This document shows, one piece after another, positions 30,893-46,881 of a stretch of 64,000 bases of DNA (positions are counted from its first letter, which is position 1; the number at the start of each line of letters is the position of its first letter). Source of the stretch: [Bacillus] enclensis (lineage in GTDB: Bacteria; Bacillota; Bacilli; Bacillales; Bacillaceae_B); NCBI RefSeq assembly GCF_001456935.1, contig NZ_KQ758485.1, positions 110,944 through 174,943 of the forward strand, written 5' to 3'. The translations under genes were made by a program, and so were the position numbers. The notes under the pieces are model-generated. The model did not search any database and was not told the origin of the DNA. It saw only the letters and a program-made list of their open reading frames with translations.

Positions 30893-30909
30893 CTCTGTCT
30901 CTCCTTTTT

Positions 30910-30923
30910 CGTAATCGCTTACA
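30910..30923 (-). promoter_or_regulatory. cre site ahead of the mannose PTS gene
   Basis: TGTAAGCGATTACG on the minus strand fits the CcpA consensus at 13 of 14 positions and lies directly upstream of the ribosome site of the PTS gene. Confidence 0.65.
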
Positions 30924-31026
30924 TTTACTATAACGCTTGATTATCAGTTAAAAAGGAGTAACTTTTACCGGAGGCTGCGGTAAAATGGCAAAAATAAAAT
31001 AGCTCTCTACACCGCTATTGATTTCC

Positions 31027-31265
31027 GTGCAAGACTTCGCTTTCCGTGGGTAGCCCGTGAGCCTCCTCGGCAAGCCTGCGGGAAGAAAAGCGGAGGGGCT
31101 TTGTTTAGAGGCGGTTGGCATAAGGCGAATCGGCCACGAAGGCGTTCTTTGCCTTCTTGGCCGATTTGACTTATGACATGTGCCTCTAAGCCCCGTAGCT
31201 AGACAAGTCTCACATATGCTACTCTTCCCGCAGGAGTCTCCGTCTTGCACTCCAATCAACCGCTG
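31027..31265. repeat. Long nested palindromic repeat (Bacillus dispersed-repeat type)
   Basis: Outer arms TGCAAGAC/GTCTTGCA, next CCTGCGGGAAGA/TCTTCCCGCAGG, next GGGGCTT...TAGAGGC/GCCTCTAAGCCCC. The core hairpin has 24-bp arms (31120-31143 and 31151-31174, three mismatches, 7-nt loop). The outer sequence (CTTTCCG.GGG.AGCCCGTGAGCCTCC) is familiar from dispersed intergenic repeats of Bacillus genomes. No reading frame encodes a transposase. Confidence 0.8.
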
Positions 31266-31372
31266 GAAAGTGCTAAATATCTGTACATTCATACTAAAAA
31301 TCCGAACTAATTTGCTAGCTTTAAGGCAAATCAGTTCGGGTTTTAGTCTAAAGTACTTTTCTCTCCATCTTT

Positions 31373-33307
31373 TTAAGATCCATTAAATTTTGATAGAAGC
31401 TGCAACCGATCCTTCTCTTTTAAAAGAGCTTGTATGCGGTCCGGGTCTTCACTTAACAGCGAAATCTCCCGAAACAGCTGCTTCACCTTTTCCTGCTTAT
31501 CATCGCGGACGGCCAGCAGGAAGACTAGTGACGCTTTCTCCGCTCCCCATTCAACCGGTTCCGGCAGGGTCGCGATGGCAATGACGGACTGCCTGATATA
31601 CTTGGGATTTCCGTGCGGGATCGCAATCCCGGATCCCACTGTCGTAGCCGCCATTCGTTCCCTAATCATCGCGCTTTCCGTGTACTCTTTTTCCACATAA
31701 CCCTTTTTAAAAAGGTCCAGTGAGAGCTTTTTGATGATTTCATATTTATTTGTTTCCTGAAGGTTTGGGAATACCAAGAATGGATCTGTGTAGCTTAATA
31801 TCATTGAGTTTTCGCTTGATCGCGGCGTTTTCCCGAGCTGACTGATCATTTCAGCAAGTCGTTCCTCATCTCCCTTACCAAATAAGGGAGACACCACAAT
31901 ATGAGGCTTCTCTACAGCTTCCAGCGAGATTGTGCTGATGATAAAATCAACCTCGTCCCGCTTCAAGAAGGCCTGCAATTCAGAATGCGCAATACAGTCT
32001 TCCACCTGCACCGTCTGGAATTTTCGCTCCACCTTCGTCCTCAGCAGTTGTGACATCCCGATTCCCATATGGCAGACGATGACCGCTTTTTTCACGGCGA
32101 GATGTTTATTCTTGAGCCTTTCCAATGACGCCTGAAAATGCAGGGTCAGATAAGCCGCTTCCTCTTCAGGTATCTCCAGAGGCAGTGTTTGGTTCATCTC
32201 ATCGATTGCAAAAAGGATCTGATCAAACAGATAGGGATACATCTTCTTGATTTCCTGCAGCATCACATTCGAAACCGGCAGCCCGTGCTTCAGCCGATTA
32301 AGGGTGGAATGCAGATGAACACGCAGTCCCTCCAACAATTCTTCATCTTTTTTAAAATCAACCTCATGCGTTCGAGATAAAGAAGTGACCATGGCCGTAA
32401 TGACCTTTGAAAGAAGTTCGTCACTGTCGTTTGACTCCACACTATTTCTCTGCAAAAATTTCCCGCCAAGGAAATGCAGCGTCAGATAAGCCCGCTCCGA
32501 ATCCGGAAAACGGATGGAAAAAGCCTGCTCCATTCTCTTCAGTAACTCAACGGCCCAGCGGTATTCTTTATGCCTTTTTAAAAATGCAATCTCTTCCTCC
32601 GGCATCGCAATGAACTGCTGGAGCTTGGTCCGCTTCAACATCAGAAGCGTGTGGATGACAATCCGATCAAAGGAATCATCCGTGAAAGAAAGAGCATATT
32701 TCTTTTGGAGATCCCTCATCCAGGCAGTGATTGAAGTGACTTCATGAGGAGAGAACTGATTTATAATAAAATCATTGCCTGGCATATTTGAGTTCACAAG
32801 CTCATGCAGGCGGGACAAGGCCGAACGCTTATCCCTTTCTGTCCCCTCAAGCGTCAGTCCGATCCTCTGTTTCGTCTCCATAGTCAGATCAAATGAACCC
32901 AGCCAGTTTCCAAGCAGGTCCAGATCTTTTTTTATAACAGACTTGCTGACATAAAACTTAGCTGCAAGTTCCCCAACCGTAACGGCACTGGGGTTCATCA
33001 GCAGTTCAAAGGCCATCTCGATCAGCCTGTCCCCTTCTTCCATGCGGTTTTCTTTTATACCGCTTATATAAAAATCACGATAAATCCAACTTTTATCGTT
33101 TTCATCCACTTCAAGGCAGACACCCAGCCCCGGCTTCCTCACCAGCGCCGCCGAAGAATACCGCTTTAGCTCCGCTTCAATCACTTTCAAATCATTCCTC
33201 ACCGTCTTCTCAGAACAATGCAATTCTTCAGTAATGTCCTTCACAAGCAAAAACCGATTCGAATGACGTAAAAGAATGCCCACCATTTCCTGCTGTCTAT
33301 CGTTCAT
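31373..33307 (-). CDS. manR: PRD-containing transcriptional activator, ManR-like
   Basis: 644 residues from the ATG at 33307 (AGTAGGTGTAATC before it); any longer reading runs into a REPIN-like repeat. The order is a helix-turn-helix (about 1-60), a second helix-turn-helix (about 85-150), PRD1 and PRD2 (about 175-395), an EIIB-like domain (VIVCHMGIGMSQLL, about 410) and a C-terminal EIIA-like domain (His in GIAIPHGNPKY). Such proteins are phosphorylated by HPr and their cognate EII and switch on the PTS operon when sugar is present. The neighbouring EIIBCA gene is the obvious target. Confidence 0.87.
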   Translation of the reverse strand: MNDRQQEMVGILLRHSNRFLLVKDITEELHCSEKTVRNDLKVIEAELKRYSSAALVRKPGLGVCLEVDENDKSWIYRDFYISGIKENRMEEGDRLIEMAFELLMNPSAVTVGELAAKFYVSKSVIKKDLDLLGNWLGSFDLTMETKQRIGLTLEGTERDKRSALSRLHELVNSNMPGNDFIINQFSPHEVTSITAWMRDLQKKYALSFTDDSFDRIVIHTLLMLKRTKLQQFIAMPEEEIAFLKRHKEYRWAVELLKRMEQAFSIRFPDSERAYLTLHFLGGKFLQRNSVESNDSDELLSKVITAMVTSLSRTHEVDFKKDEELLEGLRVHLHSTLNRLKHGLPVSNVMLQEIKKMYPYLFDQILFAIDEMNQTLPLEIPEEEAAYLTLHFQASLERLKNKHLAVKKAVIVCHMGIGMSQLLRTKVERKFQTVQVEDCIAHSELQAFLKRDEVDFIISTISLEAVEKPHIVVSPLFGKGDEERLAEMISQLGKTPRSSENSMILSYTDPFLVFPNLQETNKYEIIKKLSLDLFKKGYVEKEYTESAMIRERMAATTVGSGIAIPHGNPKYIRQSVIAIATLPEPVEWGAEKASLVFLLAVRDDKQEKVKQLFREISLLSEDPDRIQALLKEKDRLQLLSKFNGS

Positions 33308-33326
33308 GATTACACCTACTTTACGA

Positions 33327-33429
33327 GCCGCGGGGACAGGTACCGCGACCCACTTCCACATCTTTTTTCCTTCTGATTGGCCAGAACCTTGGGGACAGGA
33401 ACGGTGGTCCACTTCCCCTCCTTGTCCCC
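33327..33429. repeat. REPIN-like element, copy 8
   Basis: CGGGGACAGGTACCGCGACCC and a second arm GGGGACAGGAACGGTGGTCC in the same orientation, then CTTGTCCCC. It fills the gap between the zinc-ribbon stop (33431) and the manR start (33307). Confidence 0.75.
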
Positions 33430-33792: not shown

Positions 33793-34917
33793 CTATTTGA
33801 TCAATCTCACAATCTGCTCCACCGTCACCCGTACCTGCTCACTGGAAACCTCTTTTAATAGAGCCTCCTCAAGCATCCGGCACTCGGTCTGAATGGAGAA
33901 CACCGCATCCAGATACTGATTGACTTCTTTCAAATCCGTATCCACACGGCCGGCAATTCCGATCACTTTCTTGCCATGCTTCTTTGCGAGTTTCGCAACC
34001 CCGACAGGGACCTTGCCCATGAGGGACTGGCTGTCTAGGCTGCCTTCCCCGGTGAAGATCACGTCGGCTGCTGAGACCTTTTCTTCCAGGCCGGTCAGTC
34101 CGGCGATGGTTTCCACACCTGATTGAAGCTTGCCTTTCAACCCGGCCACGATAGCACCGCCGAGGCCGCCGGCTGCACCGGAGCCTTCGACTGATTGGAG
34201 GTCAATCCCATATTTGTCTCTAAAAAGAACGGCCAGATTCCGAAGGGCCCTATCCAACTCAACGATATCCCCGTCCGTCGCTCCTTTTTGCCTGGCGAAA
34301 ATATGGGCTGCTCCGTTTTTTCCGAAGAATGGGTTGGTGACATCGCTGGCGATGGTGAAAGAGCACTGTTCCAGCTCTGGGATACGATCCTCATCCGTGA
34401 ATGAAGCCACCTTCAGTAACGGGTTTCCTTCATTACCGAGGAGATTGCCATCATTATCATAAAACTTCCAGCCAAGTCCCTGTAGCATCCCAACCCCGCC
34501 GTCATTCGTGGCGCTTCCACCAAGCGAAATGACAATAGTGCGGTAGCCGTTCTCGACGGCATTCTTGATCTGCTCACCCAGACCGTATGTGTTGGTTTTC
34601 ATTGGATTCCTCAGGTTAAAAGGAACAAGAGGAAGACCGCTGCTCCGTGCACTTTCAATAAAAACAGTATCCTCATCCAGTACCGCATAGCGGGCTTTCA
34701 TCATATTCATGAGCGGATCATGAACTGAAACTTCCCTTTCCTCACCATCCATCCCGGCGAGCAATGCCTCAATCGTCCCTTCCCCGCCGTCCGCCATCGG
34801 GGAATTCTCAACCTGAGCATCCGGCAACGCAGCCAAGATTCCTTCCCGCGCCGCTGCTCCGACCTCAAACGCCGAAAGCGAATCCTTAAACGAATCAGCC
34901 GCAATCAAAAACTTCAT
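33793..34917 (-). CDS. Glycerate kinase (GlxK/GarK family)
   Basis: 374 residues from the ATG at 34917; the in-frame GTG at 34923 is too close to AGGAG. Family motifs are IAADSFKDSLSA (2-15), SPMADGGEGT (about 38), LGGSATNDGGVGMLQGLG (about 120) and FTGEGSLDSQSL (about 285). Phosphorylates D-glycerate with ATP, giving 2-phosphoglycerate in this family. It lies behind the GH13_18 phosphorylase gene on the same strand, and glycerate is a product of both that enzyme and the mannosylglycerate hydrolase nearby. A REPIN-like element separates the two genes. Confidence 0.92.
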   Translation of the reverse strand: MKFLIAADSFKDSLSAFEVGAAAREGILAALPDAQVENSPMADGGEGTIEALLAGMDGEEREVSVHDPLMNMMKARYAVLDEDTVFIESARSSGLPLVPFNLRNPMKTNTYGLGEQIKNAVENGYRTIVISLGGSATNDGGVGMLQGLGWKFYDNDGNLLGNEGNPLLKVASFTDEDRIPELEQCSFTIASDVTNPFFGKNGAAHIFARQKGATDGDIVELDRALRNLAVLFRDKYGIDLQSVEGSGAAGGLGGAIVAGLKGKLQSGVETIAGLTGLEEKVSAADVIFTGEGSLDSQSLMGKVPVGVAKLAKKHGKKVIGIAGRVDTDLKEVNQYLDAVFSIQTECRMLEEALLKEVSSEQVRVTVEQIVRLIK

Positions 34918-34933
34918 CTTCACACACTCCTAA

Positions 34934-35013
34934 GGGACAGAGGGACAGGTACCGTGTCCCAAAATCCGTCTTGAAAATAGGCAGGTGGGACAGTGTACCT
35001 GTCCCCGCGTCCC
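34934..35013. repeat. REPIN-like element, copy 10
   Basis: GGGACAGAGGGACAGGTACCGTGTCCC and the inverse GGGACAGTGTACCTGTCCCC. It lies 6 bp behind the stop of the GH13 gene and ahead of the glycerate kinase gene, so it is inside a likely operon. Confidence 0.88.
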
Positions 35014-35019
35014 ATTTCC

Positions 35020-36708
35020 TTATTTAATCCACACAAACTGGTAAGGTTCCAATTCAACCTTGCCGCTCATTTCTTTTCCGCTCATTAAGTCGGTTCCTTC
35101 TTCCGGAAGTTCGACTTCGCCTTTACGGGAATCAAGGTTTACGACAAATGTAACCTCTTCACCCGTGTCATCATTCATACGCTTCAAGCCGAACACATTA
35201 TCACCAAGTTCCAGCACTTCCTGCCCTGCATAGGGAGAAAACGCAGATTCCTTTTGGCGGATTGCGATCATGTTCTGCAGTCCTCCGAAGATCCCTTTCC
35301 GGCGGGAGTCTGTATCCAGATCTTCCAGAATGGTTCCGAGTTCAAGCTTCTCGCGGTTGATCCGGCGGTTGATGCCCGACTCTTCCACCCCGGCTTCGTA
35401 ATTTTTGGAACCAAGCAAAGAATGATAGTAAATAGCCGGAACACCGACAAAGGATAAAAGAATCGAATGGGCAGCGAGCATTTTTGCCACTTCCATTTCC
35501 TCAGTCGTATCCTCGCCCTTATTCACAAGCGCGTTTGAATAATTGATATTCAGTTCGTAAACGGACTGACTGCCGTCACTATTCGCTTTATACGACACGC
35601 GGCCGCCGTTTTCCTTCACTTTTTCAACAAGCATCTGCTTTTCATCCTCGGTCAGGATGCCTTCCGTCGGACGCATGCCGATTCCGTCATGACTCGCAAG
35701 GAAATTAAAATAAGTCGCCGTATCCGACACAGTATCAATTGTCTTCGCCCATTCCGTCAACTTGGCACCATCATGGGTGGTCAACGAGTGCAATACGAGC
35801 GGAGGAAGCGAGAATTGATACACCATATTCGCTTCCTCGGTGCCGTCGCCAAAGTAGCTGATGTTTTCTTTATGGGGCACATTGGTCTCTGTAATGATTT
35901 GTGTATTCGGCTTGAAAAAGTCGACAACATCTCTCCAAAGCTTGATGATTTCATGCGCCTGCGGAAGGTGGATCGACGTCGTGCCAGACTCCTTCCAGAT
36001 AAATCCGATTGCATCGAGGCGGATGCTTGTCCCGCCTTTGCTCACGTATTCCAAAAGGATGTCCGTCATCTCGACGAGCACCGGGAAATAGCGGAAATTG
36101 ACGTCAACCTGGTCTTCACTGAACGTAGTCCAGGCCGTTTTCACGCCGTCTTTCCCTTCGTACTCATGATGAAGCGGCGACGTCCGCGGACGCACGACTT
36201 CACTTGCATCGAAGGAGTCATCTTTCGGGATAAAATAATTTTGGTACTTTTCATCACCATTCAAATATCCTTGGAACCACTCGCTGGATTTCGAGATATG
36301 ATTGGCCACGAAATCGAACATCAGGCGGTAATCTTCAGAAAGATCCTCGATGTTGGTCCAGTCACCAAGGTTTGAATCCACCTGACGATAATCAACAACT
36401 GAAAAACCATCATCCGATGTAAACGGAAACATCGGAAGCAGGTGGACATCTGTGACCGTGCCCTTCACTTTTTCGCTTAAAAAAGAGCGCAGCGACTCAA
36501 GCGTCGGTTTTCCTTCTTCGTAGATGCTGTCGCCGTAAGTGATCAGGTAGACGTTTTCTTCTGAAACAGGAGCTGTTTTTTCGAAGGAATGGCCGCTCCA
36601 TTTTTCCAGCAGCTCCTTGAAGCTTGTTAGATACTCTTCTTTATACTCTTTGCCGTAAATGGTTTTGAGTCTGGTTTCTATGTTGGTTAGTAGTTCGTTT
36701 TTTGTCAT
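35020..36708 (-). CDS. GH13_18 sugar phosphorylase, probably glucosylglycerate phosphorylase
   Basis: 562 residues, the size of the E. coli YcjM type. The sucrose-phosphorylase-like barrel has the nucleophile Asp232 in SIRLDAIGFIWKE, acid/base Glu274 in ITETNVPH and Asp341 in FLASHDGIG. FDFVANHIS and LPMFPFTSDDGFSV are typical of subfamily 18. Members split sucrose, sucrose-6-phosphate or glucosylglycerate with phosphate. The glycerate kinase gene just downstream favours glucosylglycerate, giving glucose-1-phosphate and glycerate. No signal peptide, so it is cytoplasmic. No dedicated transporter for glucosylglycerate is adjacent. Start at 36708 with AAGGTGAAACG. Confidence 0.75.
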   Translation of the reverse strand: MTKNELLTNIETRLKTIYGKEYKEEYLTSFKELLEKWSGHSFEKTAPVSEENVYLITYGDSIYEEGKPTLESLRSFLSEKVKGTVTDVHLLPMFPFTSDDGFSVVDYRQVDSNLGDWTNIEDLSEDYRLMFDFVANHISKSSEWFQGYLNGDEKYQNYFIPKDDSFDASEVVRPRTSPLHHEYEGKDGVKTAWTTFSEDQVDVNFRYFPVLVEMTDILLEYVSKGGTSIRLDAIGFIWKESGTTSIHLPQAHEIIKLWRDVVDFFKPNTQIITETNVPHKENISYFGDGTEEANMVYQFSLPPLVLHSLTTHDGAKLTEWAKTIDTVSDTATYFNFLASHDGIGMRPTEGILTEDEKQMLVEKVKENGGRVSYKANSDGSQSVYELNINYSNALVNKGEDTTEEMEVAKMLAAHSILLSFVGVPAIYYHSLLGSKNYEAGVEESGINRRINREKLELGTILEDLDTDSRRKGIFGGLQNMIAIRQKESAFSPYAGQEVLELGDNVFGLKRMNDDTGEEVTFVVNLDSRKGEVELPEEGTDLMSGKEMSGKVELEPYQFVWIK

Positions 36709-36727
36709 CGTTTCACCTTCTTTTGAA

Positions 36728-36930
36728 GTTTGTTGGATCGGCTTGGGGTGGGAACCCTTTATTTAGGGACTTGGTTTTCATCAAAAAGCGGTTTTAAAGA
36801 CAATTAGGCCTTTCCAACAGATAATTGGGCCTCTCACCAATTTATTAGGCCGTTAAAAATTTATTTGTGCCTCTCCTCGGACTAATTGCACCCTTCAAAC
36901 TATTATTTGTGCCCTTCATGTCGGATTTTC
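36728..36930. repeat. About 200-bp direct repeat flanking the mannosylglycerate module, copy A, with 21-bp array
   Basis: Begins GTTTGTTGGATCGG, then TTTAGGGACTTGGTT. About six units of AATTnnGCCnnTC at 19-22-bp spacing follow, and it ends GTGCCCTTCATGTCG. The same order is found at 43185-43392, in the same orientation. Confidence 0.75.
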
Positions 36931-36946
36931 TTTTTTCGGTCGATGG

Positions 36947-37092
36947 GACTGTGTCTCCTATTAAGGATGCCATCCCTGGATCCAGCTTTTCTCATTGGAG
37001 ATGCACGGATAACCTCATATTTTAAACATTAATTTGTCAAACCCGCTTTTTAACTCTAAAGAATTGGGTGAAAATCAGCAGGAGACACAGTC
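36947..37092. repeat. 146-bp element bounded by perfect 13-bp inverted repeats
   Basis: GACTGTGTCTCCT at 36947-36959 and its exact complement AGGAGACACAGTC at 37080-37092. No reading frame lies in between. It has the build of a small inverted-repeat element (MITE- or REPIN-like); only this one copy is present in the window. Confidence 0.6.
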
Positions 37093-37103
37093 TCGGCCAC
37101 TGG

Positions 37104-37225
37104 ATTGAGCCACTTTGCAGAATAATTGCTCCAGTTCTGAAATAATTGCGCCTCTTTACGGATAATTGCGCAACTTTCAAATTAATTGCGCCACTTCACT
37201 CTGTAATTGAGCCAATTGTCGAAAA
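37104..37225. repeat. Second array of about 21-bp degenerate repeats (AATTGCGCC type)
   Basis: Six units such as ATTGAGCCACTTTGCAGAAT and AATTGCGCCTCTTTACGGAT follow each other at 19-21-bp spacing. The AATTGnGCC core is kept and the rest varies. Confidence 0.75.
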
Positions 37226-37310
37226 TTCTTTATCTGGCAGGGGTGAGACACGCTGGAACAGGTCCAGCATCCTACTACCTGAAACCTTGTTCATCCCATA
37301 GCTCGTTTTT

Positions 37311-37381
37311 GGGTCACTGTACCTGTCCCCTTGGCTCACCTTATGTCAATCTGGACCACTGTACCTGTCCCCCTGGCTCAC
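37311..37381. repeat. REPIN-like element, copy 11 (two arms in direct orientation)
   Basis: TCACTGTACCTGTCCCCTTGGCTCAC followed 35 bp later by a second CCACTGTACCTGTCCCC with GGCTCAC. Here the halves are direct, not inverted repeats. It abuts the stop codon of the GH38 gene (37383). Confidence 0.8.
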
Positions 37382-37382
37382 T

Positions 37383-40022
37383 TTAAGACAACTTCAACGT
37401 CAAATGTCCCTTAGGCTTAATCTCAAGTTTACTTCCGGCTCCAGCTAGTACTTCCTCGGCTAAATTAACAACGACAATAGAGTCAAACACGCTGTCCAGT
37501 TCAAACGTCTGTACCTCGTCTGTCGGATTGAAGAACCGGACAATTACTGAAGTATCGTCGTATGCACGTTTGCAGCTGCTCATCACGATTGCAGGGTTGT
37601 CTACGATACGAAGCAACGACACCGAATCATCTAGTTCAGCCACAGGATATGGGATTTCAAATCGCTCGAGGCGTTCTTCAAATGTGTTCAAACTCTGCTT
37701 CTGGTACGATACATGGCGGCTGACGAAGTGATCGGTTTCGCCGAACAGCGTCTCAGCCTCCTCAGATCCAACGTATACCCCGTATTCAAACACCATCTTC
37801 TGCTTCATTTGTGCATCCGGTGTGTATACGACTTTGTTGTTGATGCCGGATGCACGGCCCGGGCGCCATGCCAGGTCGTCTCTTCCCAGAAGACCGACGC
37901 TTCTGAACAGGGTCAGTGCCAATGAGCCGCCGACGACTTCGTATTCCTTGATGCCGCGGGTGATGGCTGCAAATGTTACGCCATCTTTGGATACGCCTGC
38001 AAAGTTCTCTAACGAATAAATCGGAACCGGTGCTTCGGCGAAGCCGTTCTCTTTCCAATCCTTCATATAAGGATTTTCAACGCTACGTTCAATTAAACCG
38101 AAGCCTTGATCGGCAAATGACGATGCAGAATTGGCCACTCCAGTATTCAGAAGCACCCTCACGCGGTGGTCCTCGACTGAGTTGTCAATTGTATGCTGGA
38201 CTCGCACGACCTTCTCGTCTTTACGCAGTTCGAGCGTCGTAACGATGACCAATGATTCGGAATTAATCTTGGCCTGGCGATCTTCGAGATTCGCAGGAAC
38301 GAGAGCTTCATGTTTGATCATCATTTTCCCAGACAATGCGCCATTCTCAACAAACAGCAATTCCCCTTGTTCAAGCAATATCGGTTCGTCACCCTCAAGC
38401 GGTGAGAAGTCATAAGAATCGCCGGCATCCGCTACATTTTCAAAACGCAGCAGTCCAGGAATCTCGATACCCGTCTCCTTCTGAGTCAGCGTCACATTCC
38501 CATCCACAAACTCCACTTTCACGTGGTCGTTCTCAATCGAAGTCTTCGCATCATCTTCCGAAAGCTTGCGCAACCCTTCTTCCACTTCCTCGACCACAAA
38601 CGTGCGATAACCAAGTGCCGGAACATCCTTCACATCAGCCATCACCACCGTACGGTAATAGCCCGGCACCTCGACCTGCTTCTCGCCTTCTGCGGTTACG
38701 ACGATTTTCTTCCCGCCGCTGATATATTCCTGGTCGACCGCTTCAACGGACACCTCGGATCCATCCAGACAGCAAACCTTAAAATGACTGGATTTCGTAA
38801 ACAGTACAGCCTCAACCGAACCGGCAAACACGTCAGCATTCGTATTGAAGAAAACAAACACATTATCCTGACCAAGCTTCCGGCTGACGGCTTCCGTCAT
38901 CTGCTTCTTTAAAATATTCAAAAGCCCGTCCGCCATGCGGTTCACTTTCTCGAGGCGGTGGACGATGTCGCGGTTCGTGTCATCGGAGTTGCAGCCGCCG
39001 ATGCTGTCGTGGGCGTGAACATCGAATAGCTGTTTCCACATGCCGTCGAGCCATGCCTGCGGGTAGCGGAATCCGAGTGACTGGCCGATGACCGCCAGCG
39101 GTTCAAGCACGTTCAAGATTTTATGTTCCACTTCGTAATTCAGTTTCTTGATATCATAACGCTGCGAGCGGATCGTGTTGTGGATCCGTGACTTCTGGGT
39201 AGCCGTCATTTCGCCTTCGATTACATTCGAAAACCCGGCATCGTCTTCCCAAGTTTCCTTCATGAACGTTTCATAATCGGACAGCACAAACTCGTACTCA
39301 GAAGAATCTTCGTTCAGTTTCTTGATTGTTTCAGGAAAATGCTCGCGCACAAGGACCTGGTCCCCGCCGGCAGGCAATAACAGATTATCTGTACTCGTAT
39401 TCATTTCAGCCAGTTTCTCCAAAATAGGGAGCAGTCGCTCTTCCTTATACTCTTCCGTTGCTTCAAGGAATTTCCCCGGGCCGTAGCCGAAGTAAATGTT
39501 GTTTGCATCCACGGTTTCGCCGTCAGGGGATTTCCATGTGAAGTTAAGGTCGCCTTTCAGCTGATCCGTATAGATCCCTCGCTGCAGCACGCTGTTGTCG
39601 ATGCCGAATCCTTTGAAAATTGAAGGCAGGTACTGGTTCTGACCGAAAATATCCGGGAGGTAGCCGCAGTTCATGCTGTGGCCGAAGCTGCCGGAAATTT
39701 TTGTTCCGTACAACAGGTTACGGATGATCGATTCTTTATTCACCAATAGCGAGTCGGTCTGGGTGTACCACGGCCCAATGAAAATCCGCTTTGCCTCCAC
39801 CAGCTGCTTCAGACGGTCACGGTTTTCCGGGCGGGCCTTCAGATATTCCTCGACGACACTTGCCTGCGCGTCGAACACGTAGCCTGTGTAGTCTTCATCT
39901 TTTTCAAGGACGTCCAAAAGATGATCGAGGTTTTCCGCGAGCAGGACGTTTGAATCTTCTATTGTAAAATACCATTCGCGATCCCAGTGGGAGTGCGGTA
40001 CGACGTAGACACGTTTCTTCAT
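37383..40022 (-). CDS. mngB: GH38 alpha-mannosidase, mannosylglycerate hydrolase type
   Basis: 879 residues from the ATG at 40022 (GGAGGGAACATC before it), close in length to E. coli MngB. N-terminal zinc site PHSHWDREW (His10, His12, Asp14), a nucleophile Asp124 in GYLPDIFGQ, and a third zinc His in DVHAHDSIGGCNSDDTNRD (about 330-345). No signal peptide. MngB hydrolyses 2-O-(6-phospho-mannosyl)-D-glycerate to mannose-6-phosphate and glycerate. The PTS gene of MngA type directly upstream supports this; other phospho-mannosides remain possible. Confidence 0.85.
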   Translation of the reverse strand: MKKRVYVVPHSHWDREWYFTIEDSNVLLAENLDHLLDVLEKDEDYTGYVFDAQASVVEEYLKARPENRDRLKQLVEAKRIFIGPWYTQTDSLLVNKESIIRNLLYGTKISGSFGHSMNCGYLPDIFGQNQYLPSIFKGFGIDNSVLQRGIYTDQLKGDLNFTWKSPDGETVDANNIYFGYGPGKFLEATEEYKEERLLPILEKLAEMNTSTDNLLLPAGGDQVLVREHFPETIKKLNEDSSEYEFVLSDYETFMKETWEDDAGFSNVIEGEMTATQKSRIHNTIRSQRYDIKKLNYEVEHKILNVLEPLAVIGQSLGFRYPQAWLDGMWKQLFDVHAHDSIGGCNSDDTNRDIVHRLEKVNRMADGLLNILKKQMTEAVSRKLGQDNVFVFFNTNADVFAGSVEAVLFTKSSHFKVCCLDGSEVSVEAVDQEYISGGKKIVVTAEGEKQVEVPGYYRTVVMADVKDVPALGYRTFVVEEVEEGLRKLSEDDAKTSIENDHVKVEFVDGNVTLTQKETGIEIPGLLRFENVADAGDSYDFSPLEGDEPILLEQGELLFVENGALSGKMMIKHEALVPANLEDRQAKINSESLVIVTTLELRKDEKVVRVQHTIDNSVEDHRVRVLLNTGVANSASSFADQGFGLIERSVENPYMKDWKENGFAEAPVPIYSLENFAGVSKDGVTFAAITRGIKEYEVVGGSLALTLFRSVGLLGRDDLAWRPGRASGINNKVVYTPDAQMKQKMVFEYGVYVGSEEAETLFGETDHFVSRHVSYQKQSLNTFEERLERFEIPYPVAELDDSVSLLRIVDNPAIVMSSCKRAYDDTSVIVRFFNPTDEVQTFELDSVFDSIVVVNLAEEVLAGAGSKLEIKPKGHLTLKLS

Positions 40023-40166
40023 GATGTTCCCTCCAATAATAGATAAAGGAGTCCAGGTCAAAAACTCGACCCGGGCCCCCTTTTATGTTTTTGCAGTTAT
40101 ATTCGTGACAATGGCCATACGCGGCGGTCGGACCGGAAGTCCGGCCAATTCCCCGCGCAGCCCCTG

Positions 40167-42122
40167 TCATCGTTCATTTTTTTTCAAAATAGCAAATCGG
40201 ATAAAGATGTTCGCAAAGGCGATGAAGCCTGCACCTACGACAAGTCCGATCAGGTATGCCCAGAGATTATCCACGAGCGGCCATCCCCATACAGCCGGAA
40301 GCGGATACCATTGGACGGCACCTAGAAGTACTGCGGTCACTGAGCCGAGGATCGCACCGATGATATTGATCGGGATCGTGATCAGCGGGTTGCGGAGCAT
40401 GAATGGAATCGCCCCTTCACTGATGGCGATGAAGCCAAGCAGCAGTGATGTGTTTCCTGCGACGCGCAGGTTGGCGTCGAATACGCGGCGGCCGACGACG
40501 TATTTGTCGATGACCGTTGCCAGGCCAAGCCCAATCGGCGGGATGACGATGGCCAGTACGCGTGCTGTCAGCGGATAAATCTGGTCTGCAGCCAGGCCGA
40601 TTGCGATGGCTCCTGCTGCTTTGTTGATCGGTCCGCCAAGGTCAAAGGCAGTCGCGGCGGCGATGATGCTTGCCAGTACGACGTTGCCGGCACCCTGTGC
40701 AGCTGTGATCCAATCACTCAGTAATGCATTCAATCCTCCGAAGACAGGATCGACGATATAGAAATTCAAGAAGAATATGGTCAGAACCGAGATCGCCGGG
40801 ATAATCAGCATCGGCTTCATGGCGATCAGGTTTTTGTTGAGCTTGATTTTTTCATTTAAAAATTTCGAAACATAACCGGCCGTGAGACCAAGGATCAATG
40901 CTCCCAGGAAACCTGACGGGATACCGCCTTCCACTCCCCAGAATGTGTAGTGAAGTCCTGCTGCGAACACCCCTCCGATGAAACCCGAAACGAGTCCGAC
41001 GCGGTCGGCGATGGAATACGCGACGAATGCACCGAAGATCGGATACATGAACTTGAAGATCATGCCCCCGAATTTATCGAGGTGATGCAGGATGACGAAC
41101 AGTTCGTTCGAATGGGTCGCATATTTGATGTCATGGATTTGATCGACGAGACCGAACGGCATCGCTGCCAGTTTCGCGATCCCCATCATGAGTCCTGCCG
41201 CAACGAGGACCGGGATCATGTACGAGATACCCGTCATGACGGCCTGCGTCATTTCGGCGAGTAGACCCTGCTTGTTGCCGGAAGATGCTGTCATGTCTTC
41301 TTCGTTTTCGTCACCCGCGACAGTTCCGTCCGGGTTCGTCAATGCGCGGTTCAGGATGTCTTTTGCGTTCTTCAATGGCTCTGCCACACGTGTCTGCACG
41401 TACGGCTTGCCTGCGAAGCGCTCTTTATTCTTCGGCGCGATGTCGGTTGCGAATACGACAGCATCGGCTTCTTTTAAAATTGCTCCCTTGTGGGCATCTT
41501 CAATCCCGTTCGCACCCTGTTTCTCGGTGATGACGCGGATGCCCATTTCGCGGCCTGCTTTTTCAAGCGCCTCGGCGGACATATATGTGTGGGCGATGCC
41601 CGCTGCACATGCCGTGATGGCCAGGACCGTTTTGGTATATTCCTGTGGTTCTTCAACCGCTGTTTCCCTGCGGTCGAGAGCTGCGAGGAATTCCGCCGGT
41701 GTCGCTGCGTTCATTAGGTTGTCGATGTACGCCTTGTCCATTAGCCTTGTGCTCAGTTCGGACAGGACGCTCAGGTGGGTCGAGCCAGCTTCTGCATCCG
41801 GGATCGCCAGCAGGAATACGAGCTGGACCTTGTTATTCGGGTCGATGCTTTCCCACGTATCGATTCCATTTTTGAGCCTTGCTACGGCGAACGCCGCTTT
41901 CTTGACGGAAGGGCTTTTCCCATGTGGGATCGCAAGCCCCGCTTCAAGTCCGGTCGGGGAAATCTGTTCCCTCTCTAAAACTGCTTTCAAAAAATCTTCC
42001 TTGGAAGTAAGTATGTCTTTTTCATGGAGTGCCCCGGCGAGTTTCTCGAGGATCTCGTGTTTTGATGTTGAATCGACGTCAAACATGATAAGCTGTTCAT
42101 CTGTCATTTTTCTTAGTTCCAT
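40167..42122 (-). CDS. mngA: PTS permease EIIABC, 2-O-alpha-mannosyl-D-glycerate type
   Basis: 651 residues in the order IIA (1-150, His67 in AIPHGKSP), IIB (about 163-265, Cys172 in ITACAAGIAHTY) and IIC (about 290-645, nine or so membrane segments, GGPINKAAG and AISEGAIPF motifs). The A-B-C order matches MngA, in contrast to the B-C-A order of the mannose permease at 28931. It shares an operon with the GH38 gene and lies divergent from the RpiR gene. It should import mannosylglycerate with phosphorylation at C6; other mannosides or fructose are the alternatives. GAGGTGAACCTCAC precedes the ATG. Confidence 0.82.
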   Translation of the reverse strand: MELRKMTDEQLIMFDVDSTSKHEILEKLAGALHEKDILTSKEDFLKAVLEREQISPTGLEAGLAIPHGKSPSVKKAAFAVARLKNGIDTWESIDPNNKVQLVFLLAIPDAEAGSTHLSVLSELSTRLMDKAYIDNLMNAATPAEFLAALDRRETAVEEPQEYTKTVLAITACAAGIAHTYMSAEALEKAGREMGIRVITEKQGANGIEDAHKGAILKEADAVVFATDIAPKNKERFAGKPYVQTRVAEPLKNAKDILNRALTNPDGTVAGDENEEDMTASSGNKQGLLAEMTQAVMTGISYMIPVLVAAGLMMGIAKLAAMPFGLVDQIHDIKYATHSNELFVILHHLDKFGGMIFKFMYPIFGAFVAYSIADRVGLVSGFIGGVFAAGLHYTFWGVEGGIPSGFLGALILGLTAGYVSKFLNEKIKLNKNLIAMKPMLIIPAISVLTIFFLNFYIVDPVFGGLNALLSDWITAAQGAGNVVLASIIAAATAFDLGGPINKAAGAIAIGLAADQIYPLTARVLAIVIPPIGLGLATVIDKYVVGRRVFDANLRVAGNTSLLLGFIAISEGAIPFMLRNPLITIPINIIGAILGSVTAVLLGAVQWYPLPAVWGWPLVDNLWAYLIGLVVGAGFIAFANIFIRFAILKKNER

Positions 42123-42313
42123 GTGAGGTTCACCTCTCTATTTTAAAAATGAATGATATTTATGAAATCCCTTACAATCTAGTTATAACATAGCGAATCT
42201 TGTCGAAACGGTACATAAAAAGTATAATTGTACAGAATGAAAGCCTTGTCATGTTTCTGATTGGGTATAATGAATGTAATGACAATGAACGGTTTTATAA
42301 AGGAGCATTTCTT
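42123..42313. promoter_or_regulatory. Divergent control region of the mannosylglycerate operon
   Basis: 191 bp between the EIIABC start and the RpiR-type start. A TGGGTATAAT (extended -10) about 40 bp ahead of the regulator start may be its promoter; GTTATAAC lies near the PTS side. An imperfect GTAC...GTAC repeat at about 42209-42231 could be an operator. No cre consensus is seen. Confidence 0.4.
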
Positions 42314-43057
42314 ATGGGGAAGGTATTGGATCGGTTCGCATCGAGCATCGGGGAACTGACGCATGCGGAAAAGCATGTATTATTTTACGTCGAGGAACAT
42401 CTGGATACGGCAAAAAATCAGTCGCTGACCGCAATGGCCGAGAGCAACAGTGTGAGCACGACCACGATTGTGCGGATGTGCCGGAAGCTCGGGCTTGAAG
42501 GCTTCTCTGAGTTTAAGTTTGTCCTGAAAAGCATTGATGAAAACGTGGGGCCGGCCGAAAATATGCTCGACCGCTACAGCCAGGACATGGGACGGACGCT
42601 GTCGTCGCTTCGTGTGGAAGAGCTTGAGAAGATCAGCGGGCAGATCGAACGCGCCGGGCGGGTGATGATCGTGTCGGTCGGTTTGACCAAGATGGTCGGG
42701 GAGTACTTCAGCAAGTTGTTCATGCAGGTGAACAAGCCGACTTCGTATGTGTACGAATCGCATATCATCGACCTGCTCCCGAATATGGTGCAGCCGAATG
42801 ACCTGATCGTCTTCATCTCATCCAGCGGCGAAACGAAAACGATCGTCGGTGCGGCCGAGAAAATCCGCTATAAGAACGCAGACTCCCTTGCCATCACCAA
42901 CTCTGCGGACAGCACGCTGGCGAAGATTACCCGTAATTCCATCAGTGCTGACGTGCAAAAAGTGCAGTTTGCAGGGTATGATTTGACACCGCGTTCCACA
43001 CTCGTCGTGCTGATTGATTTAATTTTTGAGTGTTATTTGAAGACGGTGATGAAGTGA
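42314..43057 (+). CDS. RpiR-family regulator of the mannosylglycerate operon
   Basis: 247 residues from the ATG at 42314 (AAAGGAG, 8 bp before it). Helix-turn-helix domain (about 1-75, LTAMAESNSVSTTTIVRMCR) and a SIS domain (about 105-230, VSVGLTKMVGEYFSKLF, FISSSGETKTIVGAAE). It is divergent from the mngAB-like operon and probably controls it, sensing a phosphorylated sugar or phospho-mannosylglycerate. E. coli uses a GntR-type protein for this job, so the control differs here. It is followed at once by a REPIN-like element. Confidence 0.82.
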   Translation: MGKVLDRFASSIGELTHAEKHVLFYVEEHLDTAKNQSLTAMAESNSVSTTTIVRMCRKLGLEGFSEFKFVLKSIDENVGPAENMLDRYSQDMGRTLSSLRVEELEKISGQIERAGRVMIVSVGLTKMVGEYFSKLFMQVNKPTSYVYESHIIDLLPNMVQPNDLIVFISSSGETKTIVGAAEKIRYKNADSLAITNSADSTLAKITRNSISADVQKVQFAGYDLTPRSTLVVLIDLIFECYLKTVMK

Positions 43058-43142
43058 TGGGGACAGGCCTTTAGGATGGGACGGAGGGACAGGTACCTTG
43101 TCCCATTTTTTTAGCGGTGAAACACGGTACCTGTTCCCTCCC
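43058..43142. repeat. REPIN-like element, copy 12
   Basis: GGGGACAGGCC, GGGACGGAGGGACAGG with TACCTTGTCCC, then the inverse ACACGGTACCTGTTCCC. It begins at the base after the RpiR-type stop codon. Confidence 0.85.
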
Positions 43143-43184
43143 TTTGTTTTTGCTCGATTTTATTCATGAATCCACATACTGTTG

Positions 43185-43392
43185 CGGTTTGTTTGATAGG
43201 ATTGAGCTTAGAAACATCTATTTAGGGACGTGGTTATAATAAAAAAGAGGTCTTAAAAGAAAATTGTGCCTTTCCCTTTCGTGATTGTGCCTCTCCGACG
43301 ATTTAATAGGCCCTTTAGAAAATAATTGCGCCTTTCTTCGAACTAATTACGCCCTTCAAATGATTAATTGTGCCCTTCATGTCGAATTTCCA
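43185..43392. repeat. About 200-bp direct repeat, copy B, with 21-bp array
   Basis: Matches copy A (36728-36930) in order: GTTTGTTTGATAGG, TTTAGGGACGTGGTT, six AATTGnGCC units, GTGCCCTTCATGTCG. With copy A it brackets the GH38, EIIABC and RpiR genes. Confidence 0.75.
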
Positions 43393-43430
43393 TTACAGGA
43401 TTAGGTACAGTACCGACCACTGTCCCGCTC

Positions 43431-43507
43431 TAATCAAACGTTTGTTTAACCTGCTCACTCTTTCCAGCTTCAAGGGTTGAGCTATTTAATCAAACGTTTG
43501 TTTAAAT
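43431..43507. promoter_or_regulatory. Two copies of an AATCAAACGTTTGTTTAA palindrome
   Basis: TAATCAAACGTTTGTTTAA at 43431-43449 and again at 43487-43506, with the perfect 10-bp core CAAACGTTTG. They look like operators for a TetR- or LacI-type protein but lie in a gap between convergent genes (stops at 43057 and 43582), where no promoter is expected. Confidence 0.45.
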
Positions 43508-43519
43508 TTAAATACAACA

Positions 43520-43558
43520 AAAAAGAGCAAAGCCCCCTCCACAGGAGGCTTCGCCCTT
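43520..43558 (-). terminator. Rho-independent terminator of manA
   Basis: On the minus strand GCGAAGCCTCC, short loop, GGGGGCTTTGC followed by TCTTTTTT. It lies 24 bp behind the manA stop. Confidence 0.85.
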
Positions 43559-43581
43559 CTCTTATCCAACCGCTCCAAACA

Positions 43582-44529
43582 TCAAACATGCGAAACAATC
43601 AATTCCAAATTCCCTTCAACTTCAAACGTTTCAACATCAGCCGGCAGAATAAAATGGTCGCCTTTCTTCAAAGCATACGATTCTCCTTGCACCCTCAGCG
43701 TCCCTTCTCCATCCAGCACACTCGCCAATTGGAAAGGCTGATCCTGCACAAACGAAGAATATCCATCAACCTGCCACTTATAAACGGAAAAGTACTCCGC
43801 CTCCACAAATTTCGTCACTTCAACCCCGTCGCGCTTCTCGACAGAAGGCTGCACGTCCGCATTGCGGTGGGGAATCGTCGTCACTTCGATCGACTTCTCA
43901 ATATGAAGTTCACGCGTGTTCCCTTCAGCATCGCTGCGGTCATAGTCATACACTCGGTACGTCGTATCAGAGCTTTGCTGTGTCTCGAGAACCAGTGTTC
44001 CCTTGCATAACGCGTGTATCGTCCCGCTCGGCACATAGAAGAAATCTCCCGGCTTCACTGGAACACGGCGGAGCAGATCATTCCACTCGCCCTTTTCGAT
44101 CAGCTTGACAAACTCTTCCTTCGTCCCAGCCGTGTGGCCAAAAATCATCTCGGCATCCTCATCGCAGTCAATGATATACCAGCACTCGGTCTTTCCGAGC
44201 TCACCGTTCTCATGTTCCTTCGCATATGTATCATCCGGATGGACCTGCACAGACAAATCCGCGTTTGCATCGAGGATCTTCGTCAGTAAAGGAAATACCG
44301 GCGATGTGTGTCCGCCGAATAATTCACGGTGCTCATTCCATAGCTCACCAATCGTTTTTCCAGCAAACTCTCCGTTCACAACCGTGCTTTGCCCATTTGG
44401 ATGACCCGAAATCGCCCAGCACTCACCGGTTTTATCTGACGGGATGTCATAGTTGAATTGATCCTTTAACGCCGTACCTCCCCAGATTCGCTCCTGGAAT
44501 ACGGGCTGTAGAAATAGTGGTTGGCTCAT
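43582..44529 (-). CDS. manA: Mannose-6-phosphate isomerase, class I
   Basis: 315 residues, the short form usual in Bacillus. Zinc ligands are in QVHPDD (about 97-102), ECWYII (about 114) and GTIHAL (about 172). Interconverts mannose-6-phosphate and fructose-6-phosphate, so it would complete both the mannose PTS route and the mannosylglycerate route. Monocistronic, with AGGAGGAAATT before the ATG and its own terminator. Confidence 0.94.
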   Translation of the reverse strand: MSQPLFLQPVFQERIWGGTALKDQFNYDIPSDKTGECWAISGHPNGQSTVVNGEFAGKTIGELWNEHRELFGGHTSPVFPLLTKILDANADLSVQVHPDDTYAKEHENGELGKTECWYIIDCDEDAEMIFGHTAGTKEEFVKLIEKGEWNDLLRRVPVKPGDFFYVPSGTIHALCKGTLVLETQQSSDTTYRVYDYDRSDAEGNTRELHIEKSIEVTTIPHRNADVQPSVEKRDGVEVTKFVEAEYFSVYKWQVDGYSSFVQDQPFQLASVLDGEGTLRVQGESYALKKGDHFILPADVETFEVEGNLELIVSHV

Positions 44530-44739: not shown

Positions 44740-45219
44740 TTGCCCCCGAATTGGACAATTCTCCAAGAAGATTTAGTCGCCATTAATTTGGCAGCTGAAT
44801 CGAAAAAAGAGGCAATCTGCGAACTCTCTAAACTCTTACAGAAAAAAGGCTATGTAAGGGAATCTTTCCCGCAAGCGGTGGCCGATCGTGAGGAACACTT
44901 CCCTACAGGACTTCCCACCAGCCTTTATGGAGTGGCTATTCCCCATACCGATTCTCATCATGTTCTCCGCACCGGAATCGCGGTCGGCATCCTCAAGAAT
45001 CCGACGGAGTTCACCGTCATGGGGACGACCGATCAAATCGTACAAGTCGAGGTCGTCCTCCTGCTTGCGATCCAAGACCCATCCGGCCATATACAGGTCC
45101 TGCAGCAATTAATGGAGGTTTTCCAGTTACCAGAAGCCCTCCGGCAACTGAAAAGCGCAAAGAGTAAAAAGGAAGTAGTCCAGGCGCTAACCGAACATCT
45201 TTCACTTGAACGTCCTTAA
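44740..45219 (+). CDS. PTS EIIA, galactitol/fructose family
   Basis: 159 residues from a TTG start (AAAGGTGGTG seven bases before it). A PTS_EIIA_2-type domain with the phosphorylated His in GVAIPHTDSHH (about 68). First gene of a three-gene operon with EIIB and EIIC of galactitol (GatABC) type. The real substrate is uncertain because no galactitol-1-phosphate dehydrogenase or tagatose pathway gene is nearby. Confidence 0.85.
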   Translation: MPPNWTILQEDLVAINLAAESKKEAICELSKLLQKKGYVRESFPQAVADREEHFPTGLPTSLYGVAIPHTDSHHVLRTGIAVGILKNPTEFTVMGTTDQIVQVEVVLLLAIQDPSGHIQVLQQLMEVFQLPEALRQLKSAKSKKEVVQALTEHLSLERP

Positions 45220-45248
45220 TACAGAAGAGAAGAAAGGAGGATGACTTT

Positions 45249-45533
45249 ATGAAGAAAAAAGTTCTGGTCATATGCGGTACAGGGGTGGCCACCTCTACCG
45301 TGATTATGGGCAAGCTTCAGCAATTTTTAAAAGAGAAAGGAATCGCTGCAGAATTGAAGCAGTCAAAGGTCACCGACGTGCTGAATATCGCTTCACAGTA
45401 CGATGTCGTCATTTCCACTACGATTGTCCCCCCTTCCATCACATCCCAGGTGAGGGTGATCAATGCGGTACCGATCTTGACGGGTGTCGGGAAGGATGAA
45501 GTATTCGCTGAAATTGAAAATGCTTTAACATAA
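45249..45533 (+). CDS. PTS EIIB, galactitol family
   Basis: 94 residues, a single EIIB domain with the phosphorylated Cys in VICGTGVATST (Cys9). AAAGGAGG precedes the ATG. It passes phosphate from EIIA to the incoming polyol at EIIC. It lies 29 bp behind the EIIA gene. Confidence 0.88.
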   Translation: MKKKVLVICGTGVATSTVIMGKLQQFLKEKGIAAELKQSKVTDVLNIASQYDVVISTTIVPPSITSQVRVINAVPILTGVGKDEVFAEIENALT

Positions 45534-45549
45534 TGGAATTGGAGGGGTT

Positions 45550-46881
45550 ATGATGGAATGGTTGCAAAGTGTGGTTGATTTAGGTCCTTCCGTTTTGCTT
45601 CCGATTTTAATTTTTCTATTCGGTCTATTGCTCCGGATGAAAGCGGGGTCCGCTTTCCGGGCAGGCCTCATTGTGGGGATCGGATTCATCGGCGTGAACC
45701 TGATCATTGGTTTATTGATGGAAAACCTCGGACCTGCCGCACAGGATATGGTCGCGAGGATCGGAGTCGACCTTAGCATCATCGATGTCGGATGGCCCGC
45801 TACTTCAGCAATTGCGTTCGGGTCGACGGTGGGGGCATTGGCAATTCCAATAGGATTGGCCGTAAACCTTGTCCTCTTGTTAGTAGGCCTGACACGGACA
45901 TTAAACATCGACCTGTGGAATTTATGGCACATAGCGTTTACAGGAGCACTGGTAAGCATCATGACCGGCAGCTTTACAATGGGAATCGTAACGTCGATCG
46001 TCCACTGTATTGTCCTGCTGCTGCTTGCCGATCTGTCTGCGAAACACGTACAAGATTATTATGGCTATCAAAATATCACGTTTGCACACGGCACTTCTTC
46101 CCCTTACTATCTGATCGCCATCCCATTGAACAAGCTTTTTGATAAAATCCCGGGGCTGCGAAGCTGGGAAGCAGATCCGGAAAGTATCCAGAAACGCCTG
46201 GGTGTCTTGGGTGAGTCGACAGTTATCGGTCTTATCCTGGGTGTGATCATCGGGTTACTCGCAGGATGGGGTGTAAGTGACGTTCTTAACCTTGGAGTTA
46301 CGACGGCAGCCGTCATGCTTCTTCTGCCAAGGATGGTTGCCATCCTGATGGAAGGTCTTTCACCTGTGTCTGAAGCAGCCAGCGATTTTGTTAAAAAGAA
46401 GATCCCGGGACGGGACGTTTATATTGGAATGGACTCTGCATTAGCCATCGGACATCCTGCCGCGATTGCGTCATCCTTGATCCTGATCCCAATCGTCCTC
46501 GGGCTGGCCGTACTGGTACCGGGAAACAACGTCCTTCCATTCGGCGATCTGGCCACCATCCCGTTCATCGTCTGTATGATGGTGCCGATCTTCAGGGGAA
46601 ATGTGATCCGGACAGTCCTTGCCAGTACCATCGCGCTTGGACTGGGTCTACTGTTAGCGACCTACATTTCCCCGCTGTTCACGGAGGCGGCACGCTCGGC
46701 AAACTTCAATTTCCCTGAAGGCACCAGAGCCATCTCTTCCCTCGTGGACGGGGCCGTCCCTACGACTGCCATCTTTATATGGGGAGCTAAACTTGGCTAT
46801 GCCGGATTAATCGCCATTGGGGTCATTTCGCTGGTCATTGCTTATTTTCATCAAAAAAGACAGCGTACGCTGACAAAATAG
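45550..46881 (+). CDS. PTS EIIC, galactitol family
   Basis: 443 residues with about ten to twelve hydrophobic segments. GatC-family features include FGLLLRMKAGSAFRAGLIVGIGF (residues 18-40) and the GMDSALAIGHPA stretch (about 298). It starts with two consecutive ATG codons behind GGAGGGG. It forms the membrane channel for a polyol. A terminator follows, then the convergent SorC-type regulator. Confidence 0.87.
   Translation: MMEWLQSVVDLGPSVLLPILIFLFGLLLRMKAGSAFRAGLIVGIGFIGVNLIIGLLMENLGPAAQDMVARIGVDLSIIDVGWPATSAIAFGSTVGALAIPIGLAVNLVLLLVGLTRTLNIDLWNLWHIAFTGALVSIMTGSFTMGIVTSIVHCIVLLLLADLSAKHVQDYYGYQNITFAHGTSSPYYLIAIPLNKLFDKIPGLRSWEADPESIQKRLGVLGESTVIGLILGVIIGLLAGWGVSDVLNLGVTTAAVMLLLPRMVAILMEGLSPVSEAASDFVKKKIPGRDVYIGMDSALAIGHPAAIASSLILIPIVLGLAVLVPGNNVLPFGDLATIPFIVCMMVPIFRGNVIRTVLASTIALGLGLLLATYISPLFTEAARSANFNFPEGTRAISSLVDGAVPTTAIFIWGAKLGYAGLIAIGVISLVIAYFHQKRQRTLTK

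Follow-up and report, generated by a model that had tools for sequence, protein, structure and literature searches.

Which compound is taken apart by an operon that encodes, one after the other, a sugar transporter of the phosphotransferase system (PTS), a GH38 hydrolase, a glucosylglycerate phosphorylase (GGaP) and a glycerate kinase? Such an operon lies in the window, as the whole stretch of 64,000 nucleotides of [Bacillus] enclensis DNA analysed here is called. Its core consists of a divergent gene for an RpiR-type regulator (42314..43057, plus strand; Pfam HTH_6 and SIS) and, on the minus strand, the genes for an EIIABC of the Fru family that is MngA-like but belongs to a separate clade (40167..42122), a GH38 alpha-mannosidase-type hydrolase with predicted release of mannose-6-phosphate (37383..40022; PF01074), a GH13_18 protein with the TETN motif, the loop-A Glu and the subsite -1 residues of GGaPs (35020..36708) and the glycerate kinase GlxK (33793..34917; TIGR00045 and PF02595). 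The mannose-6-phosphate isomerase ManA (43582..44529, minus strand; TIGR00218) is encoded nearby as an accessory neighbour. A sequence-only reading had assembled these six genes into two parallel routes, one for mannosylglycerate and one for glucosylglycerate, with the kinase shared between them, and all six genes are confirmed at their positions. The kinase reaches 420.7 bits with TIGR00045 (cut-off 168.45) and starts at either ATG 34917 or GTG 34923; the longest reading frame of the GH38 gene spans 37383-40061 on the minus strand, with ATG 40022, which is preceded by GGAGGG, as the likelier start, and ATG 42314 was chosen as the likelier start of rpiR by its ribosome-binding site and by comparison with relatives. 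In EIIABC, the motifs PHGK (EIIA) and TAC (EIIB) are presumably the phosphorylation sites. On one side of the operon (28931-33412) there is a fructose-type EIIBCA with a PRD/Mga-type regulator whose own end is an EIIA domain, rejected as a part of the operon because it is found near it in just three of the eight genus relatives examined; on the other side (44740-46881) lies a galactitol-type PTS set, whose EIIC scores 481.5, below the galactitol cut-off of 542.2, and which was likewise rejected, being absent from the examined flanks of the eight genus relatives.

Is this arrangement more than a coincidence of one genome? In a sample of 36 genomes, all of one genus and including the window's own, a close GGaP is encoded in ten, in nine of which a window-type GH38 gene directly precedes it, and the order RpiR / EIIABC-GH38-GGaP-GlxK is identical in all nine loci (eight genus relatives and the window). 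Since the same gene order recurs in 9/36 genomes, the arrangement is not due to chance. ManA (86-100% identity) is nearby in six of these nine loci, with one gene in between in L020. From all sources, 42 distinct loci were picked for having the GH38-GGaP pair (L075 was left out as a duplicate of L022), and both EIIABC and the divergent RpiR accompany the pair in 42 of 42. A glycerate kinase lies within 4.5 kb in 27 of the 42, which, together with the constant order in the genus, bears out the expectation of the sequence-only reading that the gene set is kept together in relatives; ManA, which it had counted as a member, is present in the window but is not part of the conserved core, being near 11 of the 42 operons. 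Among the 15 operons with no kinase near them, 13 were searched (all except L068 and L099), and in every one of these 13 a glycerate kinase is encoded elsewhere in the genome. The gap between the GH38 and GGaP genes, measured on the longest reading frames, so that the precise extent of overlap depends on which starts are really used, has a median of 0, does not exceed 24 bp in 40/42 loci and is zero or negative (touching or overlapping genes) in 23/42; a wide gap occurs in two operons alone, those of the window (674 bp) and of its sister G002 (209 bp). Between the two genes in the window, a repeat island (36796-37391) is made up of units of about 20 bp with TAATTGCGCC, in two blocks, and also holds two copies of a 40-bp repeat.

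The linkage extends well outside the genus. In a scan of named genomes by GH38 alignment, for which the best 80 of 474 confirmed relatives were used, 33 loci carry a GH38 of the window's clade (44-80% identical to the window's), and GGaP is encoded directly downstream in 31 of the 33. The two exceptions are L101, which lies at a contig end, and L095 (Listeria costaricensis), where the GH38 stands without a GGaP although a clade GGaP adjoins another GH38 of that genome. Such a GGaP was found near the GH38 in none of the 47 non-clade loci of the same best 80 (GH38 27-36%), one of which, L124, has a remote GH13 protein (26%) on the opposite strand. An even sample of the class (398 genomes, the window's own included) has clade GH38 and clade GGaP in the same three other genomes, adjacent in 3/3, and a phylum sample of 398 genomes adds one further clade GGaP (G682), likewise next to a GH38. 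On quick trees (LG+G4 model), GGaP adjacency requires one change on the 99-row GH38 tree, against a mean of 32 with shuffled labels, and 44 GH38 rows, L095 among them, form a group with full SH-aLRT support, while the branch that splits L095 from the 43 GGaP-linked rows has a support of 12 only; the GH38s of L101 (contig end) and L128 (broken frame) are left out of this tree and that of L075 is kept. The GGaP tree, in turn, gives three changes in GH38 adjacency, with G018 and L128 included and L128, whose GH38 is not in the tree, scored as lacking it. By these trees, adjacency to GGaP characterises a single GH38 group.

The identity of the phosphorylase can be read from its motifs. The portion of PMC7178133 consulted gives as GGaP signatures a (T/S)ETN motif at strand beta-5 and a Glu in place of Gln in loop A. 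The window protein has both (TETN and SVYELN), as do 44/44 clade rows; it is 44.1% identical to E. coli YcjM and, by these signatures, is a GGaP (EC 2.4.1.352), in agreement with the YcjM-type assignment made earlier. TETN and the loop-A Glu make sucrose an unlikely substrate, so that a sucrose-only GH13 enzyme, raised beforehand as an objection to a glycerate route, was checked and appears improbable; sucrose phosphorylase and sucrose-6-phosphate phosphorylase were rejected as assignments for their motifs, which are wrong, and for TIGR03852, which gives 206.8 bits, below its cut-off of 334.4. With the known GGaPs, those of E. coli (YcjM), Allomeiothermus silvanus and Spirochaeta thermophila, the window protein has TETN, the loop-A Glu and the subsite -1 residues in common, the comparison having been made with YcjM alone. 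As for context, in the consulted text of PMC7178133 GGaP stands beside solute-synthesis genes, and not beside PTS and GH38 genes as in the window. The subsite -1 residues (from an extract of PMC6720575; placed by motif) are identical in 44/44 clade rows and in 17/17 other GGaPs, one Arg position of the subsite being kept in 16/17 of the others (L124 is left out of the count and L075 is kept). The pocket of the clade GGaPs should suit an unphosphorylated glucosyl group and, because that pocket is kept, a glucosyl group phosphorylated by the PTS should not fit into it. This bears on the idea that glucosylglycerate enters through the PTS as the 6-phosphate and is then split by the clade GGaP into glucose-1,6-bisphosphate and glycerate. 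The idea would explain the linkage of PTS and GGaP with no need of a third substrate, but the subsite -1 residues are those of YcjM-type GGaPs in all 44 rows and the strict linkage of GH38 is left unexplained. We know of no enzyme that phosphorolyses 6-phospho-glucosylglycerate to glucose-1,6-bisphosphate, and this use of the operon is very improbable.

How close, then, are EIIABC and GH38 to MngA and MngB, the mannosylglycerate PTS and the 6-phospho-mannosylglycerate hydrolase? As in the window, E. coli mngAB consists of a Fru-family EIIABC gene followed by a GH38 gene, with mannose-6-phosphate as the expected product; unlike the window pair, the E. coli pair does not go together with GGaP, and the two pairs fall in separate clades. 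The window GH38 scores 767 bits against the PRK09819 cut-off of 1138 for MngB, the EIIABC 487.8 bits against the PRK09765 cut-off of 763 for MngA, and their identities to the E. coli proteins are 33.5% and 34.9%, respectively; the GH38 and EII trees separate the window lineage from MngB and MngA with full SH-aLRT support. By scores and trees, the window proteins are not orthologues of MngB and MngA, and plain MngB/MngA was rejected on these grounds. The MngA/MngB-type identity proposed earlier is thus lost, and what stands of the proposed union is an operon in which an MngA/MngB-like pair, rather than the true orthologues, is joined to GGaP and glycerate kinase. Three genomes of the same genus (G005, G009 and G010) do encode MngA and MngB 50-55% identical to those of E. 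coli and above both cut-offs (988-996 and 1218-1267 bits, respectively), and no GGaP match was found in them at E 1e-20. Since the genus has true MngA and MngB, and has them without GGaP, mannosylglycerate, formerly taken as the substrate of PTS and GH38, is not the best guess for the window operon. In two further loci, L033 and L035 (G010 and G011), another GH38 lineage, about 35% identical to MngB, is accompanied by a split fructose-type EII and a PRD-type regulator.

The hydrolase itself retains the PF01074 catalytic domain, and its His/Asp residues, which we take to be the GH38 motif, are invariant in 62 aligned rows. It also keeps residues common to PTS-linked GH38s, such as the Arg and His of SRIH. 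Compared with five MngB rows, many sites differ between the two groups and yet do not vary inside either of them; they include Trp160 of MngB, which is Gln in the window GH38, Ser164, which is Tyr, and His233, which is Gly, and differences are also seen at ORF positions 173 and 358 (L107 and the second GH38 of L090 are left out of this comparison and L075 is kept); such differences are compatible with a wider acceptor site, though not a proof of it. The AF2 model of the protein has a mean pLDDT of 93.2, and its best fold matches are the bacterial GH38 structures 5kbp and 2wyi.

What would a transporter and hydrolase of this kind act upon, next to a GGaP? A sugar that enters through a PTS is phosphorylated on the way, and for MngA this sugar is mannose; GH38 enzymes cut alpha-mannosides. 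Because the PTS phosphorylates and GGaP needs a free glucosyl group, a GH38 that first removes the phosphorylated sugar fits best, and, given what GH38 enzymes cut, the substrate would be an alpha-mannosyl-glucosylglycerate. Mannosylglucosylglycerate (MGG) is a solute that some microbes make against salt stress, and the operon probably degrades MGG, or a close alpha-mannosyl-capped glucosylglycerate, through steps in series. MGG is Man-alpha1,2-Glc-alpha1,2-glycerate and, according to the consulted part of PMC3694870, is known from Petrotoga and from a mesophile, Rhodopirellula baltica. In the order that we infer, EIIABC would import MGG and phosphorylate its outer mannose, presumably at C6; GH38 would hydrolyse the mannosidic bond to mannose-6-phosphate and unphosphorylated glucosylglycerate; GGaP would phosphorolyse the latter to glucose-1-phosphate and D-glycerate; GlxK would turn glycerate into phosphoglycerate, and ManA mannose-6-phosphate into fructose-6-phosphate. 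The cap could also be another alpha-mannoside linkage. Against this series route, PTS uptake of an acidic glycoside this large is not documented in the literature searched, the MGG producers named there are few, and the GH38 of L095 with no adjacent GGaP and the limited linkage of ManA also count against it.

The gene union of the sequence-only reading holds, and the same genes might instead serve its two parallel routes, in which PTS and GH38 use mannosylglycerate and GGaP uses glucosylglycerate brought in by another transporter. The gene content, the glycerate given by both GGaP and MngB chemistry and the kinase near most of the loci agree with it, and so does the distribution of MngB: in the 33 clade genomes searched (30 of the 33 named clade loci, that is, all except L094, L101 and L128, plus G274, G422 and G424), a close MngB, 59-71% identical to the Rossellomorea MngB, is also present in seven and missing from 26, so that in these 26 the operon could also serve mannosylglycerate. 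In G835, the close MngB has an interrupted frame; in L099, the clade operon and an MngB-type operon lie side by side, the MngB-type protein of the latter falling in the MngB tree group and yet scoring 1101.8 bits, just below the cut-off of 1138. However, parallel routes need a non-PTS importer of glucosylglycerate, and none was found in the window operon, for which reason the series route fits better. A system fit for free glucosylglycerate, judging from its genes, sits elsewhere in the same genome, where contig C15 (L019, 2463-8337) carries a second operon with a CdaR-type regulator, a GGaP 47% identical to that of the window, a glycerate kinase and a sodium:solute symporter (SSF); a second, non-clade GGaP is found in three of the 33 clade genomes. 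In the flanks of the 33 clade loci (from the best 80 of 474 relatives), no SSF symporter was found and a YcjP-like permease (29%) occurs in two, L095 and L097. Fifteen GGaP loci from outside the clade were sampled, some on short contigs, and none has an MngA-like EII; 11 have a YcjP-like permease (eight at 48% or more, three near 30%), one has an SSF and three have neither. Together with the position of GH38 and EII outside the MngAB groups and a GGaP adjacency that is specific to the clade, with little or no gap, this makes two parallel routes unlikely, and a single series route the likelier reading.

Another possibility is that the operon runs partly in reverse, GH38 freeing glycerate from imported mannosylglycerate and GGaP joining it to glucose-1-phosphate to build the protective solute glucosylglycerate. 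Cellular phosphate favours phosphorolysis, which counts against such a use, and GlxK, encoded alongside, would use up the glycerate that GGaP needs as acceptor. In its favour, no match to GpgS or MPGP over the cut-off was found in the window's own genome, which makes home-made glucosylglycerate by those routes unlikely, and the GGaP reaction is described as reversible in the text consulted of PMC11009771. The regulatory sites, in turn, point to catabolism. A candidate operator, GTACAATTATAC (42222..42233, minus strand), has one mismatch to GTACAANTGTAC; when up to one mismatch is allowed, this motif is found before EIIABC in 35/44 regions of the clade (shuffle mean 0.1). A candidate catabolite-repression (cre) site lies at 42163..42177 (minus strand), the cre pattern being found with no more than one mismatch in 31/44 of these regions (shuffle mean 2.25), although the shuffles overstate the strength of both motifs because the upstream regions, from which L075 is left out as a duplicate of L022, are related. 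RpiR, through GTACAAnTGTAC sites, and CcpA, through cre, would regulate the operon. A second operator-like site, with two mismatches to the operator stretch of EIIABC, lies before the fructose-type EII gene (31280-31294); two such operator-like matches are found in 1/100 shuffles of the window. With cre-like sites set against it, the reverse use is quite improbable, and breakdown of MGG in series is the reading retained here.

The combination of GGaP with an enzyme for an alpha-1,2 bond has a counterpart in the E. coli ycj cluster (ycjM-ycjU), which, like the window operon, pairs a GGaP with an enzyme able to cut such a bond, the kojibiose phosphorylase YcjT. The E. coli GGaP goes with ABC import, a GH65 phosphorylase and dehydrogenases, and that of the window with PTS and GH38; no ABC importer, YcjQRS or GH65 phosphorylase, which with GGaP would mark a ycj-type operon, is present among the window operon genes. 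The two settings meet in G018, of the same genus, which has no window-type GH38 and in which the genes for GGaP and GlxK come last in an operon of the E. coli ycj type (L024, 6246-19131). This operon also encodes proteins 50-72% identical to YcjO, P, Q, R, S, T and U (YcjN was not identified), among them the relative of the kojibiose phosphorylase (alpha-1,2). The GGaP of this operon falls inside the PTS-linked clade, and the GGaP-kinase pair is, as read from the sequences, a module swap. The ycj-type operon of G018 adjoins an IS91-type transposase and an integrase. According to the part of PMC11543891 consulted, the ligand of the E. coli ycj importer is unknown. It is conceivable, though this is put forward tentatively, that GGaP and glycerate kinase form a common end module for capped glucosylglycerates, preceded in Bacillota by a PTS and a 6-phospho-mannosidase for MGG and in E. 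coli ycj by YcjT, which would uncap a hexosyl-alpha1,2-glucosylglycerate, both operons being ways of eating the osmolytes of other microbes.

No description of MGG breakdown or of this operon was found in the open-licence literature searched, and the consulted portions of PMC8950772 and PMC4561688 describe no route for MGG breakdown. If the series route is true, the operon would be a dedicated pathway for degrading MGG, of which accumulation, and not use, is described in the literature searched. It would also suggest a substrate for the E. coli ycj operon that can be put to the test, and would give a function to a PTS/GH38 lineage that extends across Bacillota genera and that annotation would call mannosylglycerate-specific.
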